Shown one piece after another: positions 47,854 through 53,385 of a DNA stretch of 64,000 bases (positions within the stretch are counted from its first letter, which is position 1; every line of letters starts with the position of its first letter). The notes beneath the pieces were generated by a model that made no database searches, was not told the origin of the DNA, and saw only the letters and a list, made by a program, of their open reading frames with translations. The translations under genes were made by a program, and so were the position numbers. The stretch is from assembly GCF_001507535.1 (NCBI RefSeq), contig NZ_LQBN01000004.1, forward strand, positions 1-64,000. Reading direction: 5' to 3'. The stretch comes from Thiomicrospira sp. WB1. GTDB taxonomy: Bacteria; Pseudomonadota; Gammaproteobacteria; Thiomicrospirales; Thiomicrospiraceae.

Positions 47854-47956
47854 GGCTTAATCCACGGGTGCTCTCATTCTAAAAATGCCGATGAAATCAA
47901 ACGTTTTTTTATATAGAATAAGAGACACACTAAGAGAAATAACGAAGCTTGCACTC

Positions 47957-48967
47957 ATGTCAACATCCCCCATAAACCCATCCCGACGTCACTGGATCAA
48001 GCAGACCGTTTGCAAATCCGCCCTGGCTGCCTCGGCTCTTGCCGGCTTTGGCATGACCGGCGGCTGTGAAAAACGCGGCGACAGTCGGTTTGGCATCCAT
48101 ACCTGGATTGGCTATGAAAGTCTGTTATTGGCCAACCAGACTGGACGACTGCCCCCCAACATTACCTTGTCGGTGGGAAAAAACGCCAGCGACAGCATTC
48201 AGGGACTGCTTTCAGGCAAGTTGGACGGGGCGGCCCTGACACTGGACGAAGTCCTGCAAGTAAAAAATCAGGGCATCCCACTGAAAGTGGTCCTGGTGTT
48301 TGACATTTCCGCAGGCGCTGACAAAGTCATTGCCCGCCAGCCGGTCGAACGGTTAAGCGACATCGCCGGCCAACGCATTGCCTACGAACCGACAGCAGTG
48401 GGTGAACTGATGCTGTCCAAACTGTTACAAGCGGCCGACCTGAGCCGGGACCAGGTCACACTCGTGAACTCTTCGCCCGACCGCCAGCTGGAGCAATGGC
48501 AGGCCGATGCGGCCGACATTATGATCACTTACGAGCCCACAGCCTCTCGCTTACAGCGCAACGGGGGGCACGTTATTTTTGACAGCCGCCAACTCCCTGA
48601 AACCATCCTTGATGTACTGGCCGTGCGCGCCGACCGGGTGGATCAGTTTGCCGACAATTTGCGTGACTTGATTCGCGCTCATTTTCAAGTGCTTGACGCC
48701 TTGCAGACCAACCCAGGCGACACGCTCTATCAAATCGCCACGCGTCAGGATGTGGCGCTGGCCAGCGTCCGCGAAGCGTTACGCGGTGTGATTCTGCCCA
48801 GCGTGACCGCCAACATCCGGCTTCTGAAAGAAGGTGGAAAAGTCCAGACCATGGCTCAGGAACTGACAGACCTGATGCAACAGCAAAACCTGTTTCAGCA
48901 GGAAGCAGAGCCATCTCTGACCGATCAGCTGGCGACCGCTCAGTATTTGCCCAAGGTCATTCAATGA
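47957..48967 (+). CDS. ABC-type binding lipoprotein without a transporter
   Basis: 336-residue NMT1/TauA-like binding protein with a leader that has arginines (SRRHWIKQ) and a lipobox-like MTGGC near residue 36. FGIHTWIGYESLLLANQTGRLP, LDGAALTLDEVLQVKNQGIPLKVVLVFDISAGAD and RIAYEPTAVGELMLSKLL match the family. No permease or ATPase is adjacent. Its stop overlaps the start of a c-di-GMP enzyme, so it more likely serves as a sensor input. Start is placed after a TATAGAAT-like -10 near 47912-47919. An upstream ATG at 47885 would precede that promoter. Confidence 0.8.
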   Translation: MSTSPINPSRRHWIKQTVCKSALAASALAGFGMTGGCEKRGDSRFGIHTWIGYESLLLANQTGRLPPNITLSVGKNASDSIQGLLSGKLDGAALTLDEVLQVKNQGIPLKVVLVFDISAGADKVIARQPVERLSDIAGQRIAYEPTAVGELMLSKLLQAADLSRDQVTLVNSSPDRQLEQWQADAADIMITYEPTASRLQRNGGHVIFDSRQLPETILDVLAVRADRVDQFADNLRDLIRAHFQVLDALQTNPGDTLYQIATRQDVALASVREALRGVILPSVTANIRLLKEGGKVQTMAQELTDLMQQQNLFQQEAEPSLTDQLATAQYLPKVIQ

Positions 48968-51900
48968 ACCATCGCCCCCTGGCCAAATCGAGTCGATTAC
49001 TGCAGACACTGTCGTTGGGATTGCTTGTTTGGTGTTGGGCCAGTTTTCCTCCAGTAAAAGCCGCCGACCGAACTTTGACACTCGGGGTCTACGCCGACCT
49101 GCCTGCAGACCAGGTGAAAACGCAGTGGCAGCCCCTAGCGGATTATTTAAGCCAGCAACTGCCCGCACAACAGGTACAGTTGCAGGTATTAAACGAATCC
49201 GGCCTGCACAACCACATCTATAACAACGAAGTGGACCTGCTGCTGGTCAACCCCGTGCTCTATGAGATCATTCGTGCAGAAAACACCTTGACCGGGGCGA
49301 TTGCCACCGTAGAGCGCTACCGACATGACACCGCCACGTCTTATCTGGGCGGCGTGATTTTTTCACACGCCAGCACCGCCAGCCAACCGGGGCAGCTGAC
49401 CAGCCTGACCGAATTGGCACAGGGTCGGATTGCGATTGCCGACCGTGAAAGTGCCGGAGGGTTCGTGATCCCTTTAAGCGAACTTCTGGACAAAACGGAA
49501 CTCGCCCGAAAAAACCTGACGTTTGCCTCCGTTGCCGACCAAAACGCCGTCATTGATACCGTGATGAACGGCGAAGCCGATCTGGGCTTTGTGCGCACCG
49601 GAATCCTTGAGCAATGGCTGGATCAAGGGCGGCTTCAACGCAAAGACCTAAAAATCCACACCCCTCGACGTCTGAACAGTTACCCCTATCTACTGTCCAC
49701 GACCCTCTATCCGGAATGGCCGTTTGTTGCGCTGTCTCACATCGGCGAGACCACCATCAAACAGATATCGGTGGCCCTGTTTCAATTGGACGCCAAACAC
49801 CCTGCCAGTCAGGCGGCTCGCATCAATGGGTTTGTGCCCGCAAGCGATTATATGGCCACCGAAAATCTCTTACGCGAACTGCGTTTGCCACCCTACCAAC
49901 AATTACCGCCCTTCAGCTGGCATGTTTTTTGGCAAACTTACCGCACAGAAGCGCTCATCGGTCTGGGCATCGCGGCACTCTTTGCCTTATTCTTTGCGTT
50001 GAACCTGGGCATCAGTCATCGCTTGCACCGCCTGGCCAAAGACCACCGTCTCCAGAAGGAACGACTGCACGACATTATTCAGGCCACCAACGCAGGGACT
50101 TGGGAATGGGATCTGTCCAGCAACGCCCTGACACTCAACCCTCAATGGGCAAACAAGATCGGTCTGGCTCAAAACCTGCCTGGCGATCACGACAGTTGGT
50201 TGGCGCAACTGCACCCGGACGACCGCGTCAATGTGGAAGCCCAGCAACGTTTGCACCTGCTTGGCAAAACCGATGAATACGAGTGTGAGGTTCGCCTGCG
50301 CAACGGCCAGGGGCAATGGCAATGGTTTCTGGATCGCGGCCGCGTCATTGAGCGCCAGAGCAACGGCGAACCTCTTCGCATGGCCGGCGCTCTGTCAGAC
50401 ATCACCCCGCTCAAGAAGCACGCCCAGTTACTGGAACGTCAGAGTCAACGCGACAAATTGTTGCTGAACCTGCCGGTGATGCAGGCACGTCTGGACGAAA
50501 ACCGCTTTCTGCAGTATGTACTGGATCAACTGGAACATCTGACCGACAGCCAGATTGGTTTTCTGCACAAAGTCGATGCGGACCAGAACCAAATCGAAAT
50601 GGTCGCCTGGTCTCGCCAGACTCAAAACCTTTGTCAGGCCACCTATCAAAACCATTATTCCGTGGACCAGGCAGGCATCTGGGCCGAGAGCATTCGCCAG
50701 AAAAAACCCTTCATCAATAACGCGCTACACCCCGATGAGTTGGCCGATCATCAGCCGGAAGGCCATGTAGCGATCCACAGAATGCTCACCGTGCCGGTCA
50801 TGGACAACGGGGGGGCGGTACTGCTGATCGGCCTGGGCAACAAATCCGATGCCTATGGTGAAGAAGACAGCGATACCGTTGAACTGATCGGCAATCAGGT
50901 TTGGCGCCTGATCCTTCAGCAACGCAACCAACAAGCCCTGCAACAACAGCGGGCCCAGTTCGGACGACTGCTGAATGGCATCGGGCAGAGCTTCTGTGCC
51001 CTGAGTTTATCGCCCCAAACCCTGGCATTCTCTTACCTGAGCGATTCCGCGGCCGATATTTTCGGAATCAGCAAAGCGGATTTGCTGGAACGGCGCTGGG
51101 ATCATGTCATCACTTGGAACAAGGACGACAAACGCCGGGCGGAACGCGCGTTCACTCGCTTGATTCAGGGCCATGACAACGAAAAAGCCCTGCAACTGAG
51201 TTTTACCACGCCCACGGGTGAAAGCCGAACCCTTCGCATGCTTTTGCACCGGGTTGAATCGGACGACCAGACCGTGTCGCTCGATGGTTTGATTGAAAAC
51301 ATTACGCGACGCCTGAAAGCGGAAAACGACCTGAAACAGGCGGCCAACGTCTTTCGCTATGCGCAAGAGGGCATCTTTATCACCGATACCGACGGCGTCA
51401 TCCTGAACGTCAACCACGCGTTTGAAAAAGTCACAGGGTATCGCCGTGATGAAGCCATCGGCAAACGCCCCAACCTGCTCAAATCAGGGCGTCACGATGC
51501 GGCTTTTTACCAGTCGATGTGGCAGGATCTTTTGAGCAAAGGGTACTGGAGCGGTGAAGTCTGGAACCAGCGCAAAAACGGCGAAATTTACCCTGAAAAA
51601 CTGACCCTCAGCGCCATCCATGATCATCAGGGCGAACCGATCGAATTCATTGCCCTCTTTTCTGACATCACTTTGCAAAAGAAACAACAACAGCAACTGG
51701 AGTACATCGCCCACTTTGACAGCCTGACCGGGCTACCCAACCGTTCTTTGCTCTCAGACCGTCTGAATCAGGCCATGGCCTTTGCTCGCCGTAACGATAT
51801 GTCTTTGGCGGTGGCCTTTATTGACCTGGATGGGTTTAAATCCATCAATGACTTGTACGGACATCAGACCGGCGATCAGCTTCTGGTCTCCATTGCCAAC

Positions 51901-53385
51901 CGTTTTAAGGAAACCTTGCGCGAAGAAGACACCATTGCCCGTCTGGGAGGCGATGAATTTGTGGCCGTCATGCTCGACATACGAGATAAGACCGAAATTT
52001 ATCCGCTCATGGAGCGTCTGCTGGCGAATGCCAACGCGGCCGTCAGCCTTTCCGACATTGAAATCCGCGTTTCGGCCAGCATCGGCGTCAGCTTTTATGA
52101 CCCGCACTCCGACCTGGATGCCGACCAACTGGTGCGTCAGGCCGACCAGGCCATGTATCAGGCCAAAACTCAGGGCAAAAACCAGGTGTTTGTCTTCGAT
52201 CATGCCAGTTCAAAAACACTGGCGCGCGATTCGGAACTGCTTGCCCTGGAAGACGCTCTCAAAAACGGTGAGCTTTGCCTTCATTATCAACCCAAAGTCA
52301 ATCTGCGCACCGGCGAAATTCTGGGGTATGAGGGACTGATTCGCTGGCAGCACCCACAAAAAGGCCTGCTCGGACCCGGCCAATTTCTGACCTTGCTGAA
52401 AGACTCCCCAGTCAGTTATCAGTTAGGGCTTTGGGTCATTGAAACCGCCTTGGCCCAATTGGCCGACTGGCAAGCAAATGACCTCCATACCTGCATCAGC
52501 GTCAACATAGAAGGCGATCAATTGCTGGAACCGGATTTTGCCGACCAACTGGATACACTGCTTGAGCGTTATCAACAGGTGGAGCCTGCAAAGCTGACAC
52601 TGGAACTGCTGGAAACGTCGGCGCTGGAGGATCTGTACCGCGTCGCCCAGGCCATGAATGCCTGTCAGCGCCTGGGCGTTCGTTTTTCAATTGATGACTT
52701 TGGTACCGGCTACGCCTCCCTGACCTACCTGAAAGCCCTGCCAACCGATGAACTCAAGGTGGATAAGTCCTTTGTGCAGGATCTGCTCATCAACCCGCAG
52801 AGTCTGGCCATTTTGGAAAGTGTGGTGGGGATGGGACGTGCGTTTGATCTTGACATCATTGCCGAAGGCATGGAGCGCGACGAAGAAGCGATCGCCCTGC
52901 TCGGTTTGGGCTATGAGTACGCACAAGGCTTCCACATTGCCCGCCCCATGCCGGCCAGTGATGTCATTGAGTGGAAAAACCAGTGGCTGCCCTCCCCACA
53001 CTGGTCCCAAATCGAACCCCTCGAAAAAAACCAGCTGGCCTTATTGACCGCGGCCACCGAACACCGGGGCTGGGTAAAACAACTGGAAGAATACCTGTTG
53101 GACATTCACCCCTCGCCGCCCCCAATGTCGCCGCATGACTGCCATTTTGGCCAATGGCTTAATCACCATGGCTTTGAACATTTTCATCGAACCGACATGT
53201 ACGAGCAGCTAAAGCGCACCCACGATCAAGTCCATGCGCTGGGGCAATCACTTTTGGCGCAAAAAGAAAACAAAGCGCCCACGTCAGAAATTGAAGAAGG
53301 CTTAACCCAACTGCAATCACTCAAACAAACACTGCTCTCACAACTCCAGACATTGAGCAGCACCACGCCGTTGTATCTGGAGTAG
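48964..53385 (+). CDS. PhnD-like/PAS/GAF/GGDEF/EAL/CZB signalling protein
   Basis: 1473 residues. A signal segment (1-34) and PhnD-like periplasmic binding domain (about 36-300) are followed by a membrane helix (about 328-352), PAS (365-485), GAF (492-655), two PAS (662-782, 792-909), GGDEF (about 920-1085, motif LGGDEF intact near 995), EAL-type domain (about 1090-1335) and a C-terminal CZB domain (about 1360-1440, CHFGQWL and HDQVHALG). The EAL motif reads YEGLIRW, but VNIEGDQL, LELLETS and DDFGTGYASL are intact, so phosphodiesterase activity is plausible. CZB domains bind zinc. The preceding binding lipoprotein overlaps by 4 bp. Confidence 0.9.
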   Translation: MNHRPLAKSSRLLQTLSLGLLVWCWASFPPVKAADRTLTLGVYADLPADQVKTQWQPLADYLSQQLPAQQVQLQVLNESGLHNHIYNNEVDLLLVNPVLYEIIRAENTLTGAIATVERYRHDTATSYLGGVIFSHASTASQPGQLTSLTELAQGRIAIADRESAGGFVIPLSELLDKTELARKNLTFASVADQNAVIDTVMNGEADLGFVRTGILEQWLDQGRLQRKDLKIHTPRRLNSYPYLLSTTLYPEWPFVALSHIGETTIKQISVALFQLDAKHPASQAARINGFVPASDYMATENLLRELRLPPYQQLPPFSWHVFWQTYRTEALIGLGIAALFALFFALNLGISHRLHRLAKDHRLQKERLHDIIQATNAGTWEWDLSSNALTLNPQWANKIGLAQNLPGDHDSWLAQLHPDDRVNVEAQQRLHLLGKTDEYECEVRLRNGQGQWQWFLDRGRVIERQSNGEPLRMAGALSDITPLKKHAQLLERQSQRDKLLLNLPVMQARLDENRFLQYVLDQLEHLTDSQIGFLHKVDADQNQIEMVAWSRQTQNLCQATYQNHYSVDQAGIWAESIRQKKPFINNALHPDELADHQPEGHVAIHRMLTVPVMDNGGAVLLIGLGNKSDAYGEEDSDTVELIGNQVWRLILQQRNQQALQQQRAQFGRLLNGIGQSFCALSLSPQTLAFSYLSDSAADIFGISKADLLERRWDHVITWNKDDKRRAERAFTRLIQGHDNEKALQLSFTTPTGESRTLRMLLHRVESDDQTVSLDGLIENITRRLKAENDLKQAANVFRYAQEGIFITDTDGVILNVNHAFEKVTGYRRDEAIGKRPNLLKSGRHDAAFYQSMWQDLLSKGYWSGEVWNQRKNGEIYPEKLTLSAIHDHQGEPIEFIALFSDITLQKKQQQQLEYIAHFDSLTGLPNRSLLSDRLNQAMAFARRNDMSLAVAFIDLDGFKSINDLYGHQTGDQLLVSIANRFKETLREEDTIARLGGDEFVAVMLDIRDKTEIYPLMERLLANANAAVSLSDIEIRVSASIGVSFYDPHSDLDADQLVRQADQAMYQAKTQGKNQVFVFDHASSKTLARDSELLALEDALKNGELCLHYQPKVNLRTGEILGYEGLIRWQHPQKGLLGPGQFLTLLKDSPVSYQLGLWVIETALAQLADWQANDLHTCISVNIEGDQLLEPDFADQLDTLLERYQQVEPAKLTLELLETSALEDLYRVAQAMNACQRLGVRFSIDDFGTGYASLTYLKALPTDELKVDKSFVQDLLINPQSLAILESVVGMGRAFDLDIIAEGMERDEEAIALLGLGYEYAQGFHIARPMPASDVIEWKNQWLPSPHWSQIEPLEKNQLALLTAATEHRGWVKQLEEYLLDIHPSPPPMSPHDCHFGQWLNHHGFEHFHRTDMYEQLKRTHDQVHALGQSLLAQKENKAPTSEIEEGLTQLQSLKQTLLSQLQTLSSTTPLYLE

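Follow-up and report, generated by a model that had tools for sequence, protein, structure and literature searches.

The window analysed here, a stretch of 64,000 nucleotides that is part of a 2.28 Mb Hydrogenovibrio genome, carries a binding-protein gene that overlaps the gene of a c-di-GMP receptor enzyme, which raises the question of whether the two products form one receptor, deliver two independent signals or share a locus by chance while the binding protein serves a transporter elsewhere. The binding-protein gene (47957-48967, forward strand, as are all features of the window given below) encodes 336 aa from the ATG at 47957, or 360 aa from an in-frame ATG upstream at 47885. The receptor gene (48964-53385) encodes a 1473-aa GGDEF-EAL protein, and its start and the stop of the preceding gene have four base pairs in common (ATGA, 48964-48967), as the sequence-only reading had described. 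We favour, at a probability of about two in three, the reading that both genes specify one receptor of the NspS-MbaA type, in which the binding protein would act as a dedicated co-receptor that docks on the PhnD-like domain exposed by the enzyme in the periplasm.

The closest named relative is H. halophilus, the binding protein of which is 83% identical. The same pair was found in seven of the 12 genomes of the genus, the one containing the window included, with receptors of 1338-1474 aa, and it sits in three unrelated gene neighbourhoods (three sets of flanking genes). Scans for promoters and terminators gave results no better than chance. Two genus genomes have an extra pair of binding protein and PhnD-kinase-REC protein (L071:4085-7554 and L072:1849-5217), adjoining a HATPase-REC-REC-GGDEF protein.

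Products of the overlapping genes

The product of 47957-48967 is a solute-binding protein of the NMT1 (SsuA/TauA) family (Pfam, 3e-14). A twin-arginine motif, SRRHWIK, lies ahead of the lipobox residue Cys37, which is invariant among the orthologues; the lipobox is degenerate in the window protein (TGGC) and has SGC in most genus orthologues. TatC is encoded in the host genome, and among 70 relatives of the binding protein an RRx[FWLY] motif is present in 53 and a lipobox-like motif in 55. Judged by these motifs, the protein is probably a Tat lipoprotein. Its AlphaFold model (pLDDT 92) has TauA as the best solved match (6ssy; Z 32.7, 284 aligned residues, 2.2 Å), followed by SsuA (Z 28.6) and NrtA (Z 26.6). 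The score against the SsuA subfamily model TIGR01728 (81 bits) is below the curated cut-off of 163.5, so the protein is not a member of that subfamily. NspS is a polyamine-binding, PotD-like protein. Since the binding protein studied here belongs to the SsuA/TauA family and is not a PotD-type polyamine binder, the pair may work in the manner of NspS-MbaA, but the protein is not an NspS orthologue.

For the receptor, Pfam and the NCBIfam model sensory_box confirmed the previously listed domains; with the transmembrane helix, the order is PhnD-like domain, transmembrane helix, PAS-GAF-PAS-PAS, GGDEF, EAL and CZB. A signal peptide, judged by eye, is followed by the TtrS-related PhnD-like domain (49084-49848, aa 41-295; Pfam Phosphonate-bd, 2e-35) and by a single transmembrane helix detected in a hydropathy scan (49951-50007, aa 330-348). 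The cytoplasmic stalk consists of a first PAS domain (PAS_3; 50131-50391, aa 390-476), which is missing from two genus orthologues, a GAF domain (GAF_2; 50494-50913, aa 511-650), a middle PAS-like region (50932-51318, about aa 657-785) and a last PAS domain (PAS_9; 51367-51672, aa 802-903); the three PAS stretches were found by sensory_box, with Pfam matches for the first and the last.

The GGDEF diguanylate cyclase domain (51709-52185, aa 916-1074; Pfam, 2e-49) has an intact signature (995-999) and an intact RxxD I-site (986-989). In the EAL phosphodiesterase domain (52243-52947, aa 1094-1328; Pfam, 1e-66) the metal-binding and catalytic residues are all present (E1123, N1181, E1214, D1244, D1245, K1265, E1301 and Q1321). 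Thus, by their residues both domains look like active enzymes. The signature of the EAL domain is E1123-G-L-x-R1127, so the E-G-L motif (aa 1123-1125) pointed out earlier is indeed present, but its importance had been overstated: all six other genus orthologues have EAL at this place, and no catalytic residue is changed. In the receptor set, 24 of the 29 EAL domains have Ala in the middle of the motif, three have Val and two have Gly, and EGL looks like a neutral variant at a non-catalytic position. PMC12900916 was dropped as a guide to glycine at the middle position, its A526 being a different position.

The C-terminal CZB zinc-binding domain (53062-53250) was recognized by Pfam PF13682 at aa 1367-1429 (1e-10; 41.8 bits, cut-off 29.4). 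Its ligand set of three His and one Cys (H1367, C1393, H1420 and H1424) is complete and invariant in the seven genus orthologues, as the alignment confirmed. A search of the PDB with the CZB region using phmmer returned no relatives. The placement of CZB after EAL, which the sequence-only reading had called notable, belongs to a class already catalogued: EAL-CZB proteins make up 3.4% of 10,140 CZB proteins, and EAL-containing cyclases with CZB are also known (PMC8262984). The domain could be a structural or dimerising tail in this receptor, with no zinc or redox sensing; it occurs in just 11 of 60 relatives with the same input, and among 12 aligned CZB domains the first His is missing from two and the Cys from one. 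The invariance of the four ligand positions within the genus argues against such a tail, which we regard as improbable.

According to PMC8262984, species seem to carry either CZB chemoreceptors or CZB cyclases, not both; the host genome encodes four CZB chemoreceptors (L030, L031, L032 and L026) and one CZB cyclase-phosphodiesterase (window 53062-53250). A 673-aa EAL protein (L006 / L033:4118-6139) has a sub-threshold CZB-like match (23.6 bits) ahead of its EAL domain.

Linkage of the binding protein to receptors

An alignment of the binding protein was used to scan the genomes of 84,980 species, yielding 80 loci in Beta-, Gamma- and some former Deltaproteobacteria, which were found by the binding protein alone and chosen as its close relatives. 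A PhnD-like sensor is directly adjacent in 64 of these loci, in 60 as the downstream gene and in four further loci (L098, L148, L131 and L144) either in a frame that overlaps or a short way upstream. In eleven loci the adjacent gene encodes a kinase or a GGDEF-EAL receptor that has a different sensor, which brings the binding proteins linked to receptors to 75 of 80; neither receptor type is directly adjacent in the remaining five (L088, L099, L109, L127 and L150). Taken together, the flanks examined around the 80 loci contain a single ABC permease, about 6 kb off. The locus in the window has an adjacent membrane GGDEF/EAL gene and no permease, and it falls into the group of SBP-coupled c-di-GMP receptors. 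As far as neighbouring genes go, the description of the binding protein as transporter-less therefore holds both locally and across its subfamily. Apart from recurring response regulators, the genes around the 80 loci offered no hint of what the ligand is.

An ordinary role in transport, with the binding protein borrowing a distant SsuC-type permease and its gene overlapping the receptor gene incidentally, would fit the TauA/SsuA fold of the protein, the presence of SsuC-like permeases in the host genome and the fact that other NMT1 proteins of this genome serve transporters. However, each of the two SsuC/NrtB-type permease loci already has a different binding protein: that of the urea-carboxylase-type locus (L025) lies at a distance of 13 kb, and that of the nitrate-type locus (L028) is adjacent. 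Together with the single permease in the flanks of the relatives and their linkage to receptors, this makes a transport role very unlikely. With no transporter partner beside the binding protein and with the CZB ligand set complete, neither of the two results that the sequence-only reading had named as counting against it was found.

In two methanotroph loci the gene order is reversed, with a PhnD-kinase, the binding protein and a REC protein (L131:2163-11410 and L144:2132-11320), and only these two copies have a molybdopterin oxidoreductase of the NasC/formate-dehydrogenase kind nearby. In methanotrophs, some relatives of the binding protein are orphans (L099:6998-7981, L109:6998-7981 and L127:6935-7954): they have a gene for a tungstate-like ABC ATPase nearby, and no receptor or permease was detected alongside.

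The PhnD-like domain and the exchange of outputs

The AlphaFold model of the PhnD-like domain (pLDDT 92) matches PtxB, ArrX and PhnD with Z from 27.5 down to about 23, the best solved match being PtxB (5o37; Z 27.5, 254 aligned residues, 2.5 Å). Against the TtrS model NF040750, the window domain aligns with the N-terminal half at 81 bits, and its relatives do so at 105-187 bits; as the curated cut-off is 750 and only the sensor half is covered, the receptor is not TtrS. An ST-LYPxW-FA motif is common to the domain and to a TtrS-like protein scoring 530 bits. By sequence the domain belongs to the TtrS-like sensory branch.

The oxyanion pocket of PhnD and AioX is formed by Tyr, Tyr, Ser-x-Ser and His (PMC5908839). 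In a profile alignment, which compares residues and not superposed coordinates, the PhnD-like domain keeps S163, has G165 in place of the second Ser and Q193 in place of His, and the equivalents of the Tyr residues are replaced or variable. At the position equivalent to 193, 31 of 58 relatives have His and 21 have Gln. For the pocket comparison, a set of 274 genomes of the class contained no TtrS above the cut-off. The pocket signature thus appears mostly lost, and the anion-like ligand proposed for this domain in the sequence-only reading was not upheld.

Sixty PhnD sensors were assigned by output: 20 carry a kinase, 13 GGDEF, 11 GGDEF-EAL-CZB and eight GGDEF-EAL, and the remaining eight are cut by a contig end or not assignable. 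Mapped on the tree of the binding proteins, the output label switches about 17 times; well supported branches require four to five of these switches in each class. Tree distances of the binding protein and the PhnD domain are correlated (r 0.80 for 60 pairs, against at most 0.28 in 2000 permutations). For the 33 GGDEF-bearing pairs, r is 0.75 between binding protein and PhnD and 0.35 between binding protein and GGDEF, and it is 0.40 between PhnD and GGDEF, although these two domains are in one chain. With length-matched PhnD parts the correlation of binding protein and PhnD is still 0.66-0.68; shared species history adds to all these values, so they show the input pair moving as a unit but do not on their own establish contact between its two parts. 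Conserved linkage and co-evolution thus support the claim that the binding protein is wired to the c-di-GMP enzyme.

These results bear on the possibility of two independent inputs, with the PhnD-like domain binding a ligand of its own, e.g. a sulfur oxyanion, and the binding protein delivering a second signal. The confident PhnD/PtxB fold and the match to the sensor half of TtrS are in keeping with it, as are the SoxB encoded by the host and the sensing of tetrathionate and thiosulfate by the PhnD-like kinases TtrS and ThsS (PMC5408782). On the other hand, only the first Ser of the AioX/PhnD pocket is kept, and the binding protein stays with the PhnD-like domain across outputs, as expected if it is needed. 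We therefore consider two inputs unlikely; in place of the two periplasmic ligands proposed earlier, the PhnD-like domain may serve chiefly as a docking site for the binding protein.

Because the pair was kept together while outputs were swapped, it looks like a reusable sensing cassette. The observed outputs are a histidine kinase, a cyclase, a cyclase-phosphodiesterase and a CZB-bearing cyclase-phosphodiesterase. On balance we are inclined to regard the free SsuA/TauA-like protein and the TtrS-related PhnD-like co-receptor, which are alike in general fold, as a transferable cassette that would form a complex of one binding protein on another and that has been joined to these outputs many times in Proteobacteria. 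In the openly licensed literature, no description was found of an NMT1 and TtrS-like PhnD input pair with exchangeable outputs.

Proposed mechanism and related receptors

In the preferred reading of a single NspS-MbaA-type receptor, the binding protein would be exported, probably by Tat, lipid-anchored and able to bind a small solute. Loaded or empty, it would dock on the PhnD-like domain, the changed state of which would pass through the one transmembrane helix and the PAS-GAF-PAS-PAS stalk and shift the balance between synthesis of c-di-GMP by GGDEF and its hydrolysis by EAL, as in NspS-MbaA. Zinc bound by the C-terminal CZB domain in the cytoplasm could add a zinc or thiol-oxidation input. 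A sulfur compound is a reasonable, if tentative, first guess for the ligand, because of the TauA/SsuA-type fold, the TtrS-like kinship of the PhnD-like domain and SoxB in the genome.

SBP-driven receptors are a recognised mechanism (PMC9602780), and domains of the binding-protein clans are prevalent but little studied in c-di-GMP enzymes (PMC8846402). NspS-MbaA of Vibrio cholerae and Sinorhizobium meliloti likewise combines a transporter-less periplasmic binding protein with a membrane GGDEF-EAL protein able to make or break c-di-GMP (PMC8967002, PMC9993111). In the present pair, by contrast, the binding protein is SsuA/TauA-like, the periplasmic domain of the receptor itself has a PhnD-like binding-protein fold, and a PAS/GAF stalk and CZB are added. 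TtrS and ThsS also join a signalling output to a periplasmic PhnD-like domain from this branch (PMC5408782). The present receptor differs in having GGDEF-EAL-CZB as its output, a neighbouring gene for a dedicated binding protein and a score far under the TtrS cut-off. In AioX-AioS, ArrX and ArxX, a free binding protein likewise passes its signal to a membrane receptor (PMC5908839). There the free partner is the PhnD-like protein, whereas here the PhnD-like part is fused to the receptor and the free partner comes from a different binding-protein family. E. coli DgcZ and the EAL-CZB/DGC-EAL-CZB class share CZB on c-di-GMP enzymes (PMC8262984); in DgcZ, CZB is N-terminal and EAL is absent, unlike the C-terminal CZB after EAL in this membrane receptor. 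P. aeruginosa RmcA is likewise a c-di-GMP enzyme with a binding-protein fold in its periplasmic part, but uses an SBP_bac_3 domain for arginine and has no CZB, and PMC8846402 mentions no partner binding protein. CZB behind EAL and SBP-driven receptors are known already; in the best-supported reading, the binding protein, the co-receptor of binding-protein fold and the added CZB input are what differs from NspS-MbaA.

Few binding-protein-coupled c-di-GMP receptors have been characterised so far. If true, such a widespread cassette, with outputs that can be exchanged, would account for many 'orphan' ABC binding proteins and would provide a naturally occurring sensor module for swapping outputs. 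The pair is a defined test case of a binding protein talking to a receptor of binding-protein fold, and periplasmic and cytoplasmic zinc/redox inputs on one cyclase-phosphodiesterase would constitute testable signal integration.

Sensing through binding-protein folds is common in the host genome. A second NMT1 protein gene overlaps a HAMP-GGDEF-EAL gene (G000 C1:505000-517000; L027:6223-9253), and a resembling pair is present in two other genus genomes (L073 and L074). The third binding-protein/c-di-GMP pair is a PhnD-type lipoprotein directly before an sCache-HAMP-GGDEF-EAL gene (G000 C1:48000-58000; L029:2191-5228), and another PhnD-type protein is encoded beside histidine kinases (L175). 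Two further host receptors have fused binding domains (L024 and L174); one of them, a 902-aa protein (L024:8055-10763), has NMT1 and SBP_bac_3 fused to PAS-GGDEF, i.e. two binding-protein folds on one cyclase.
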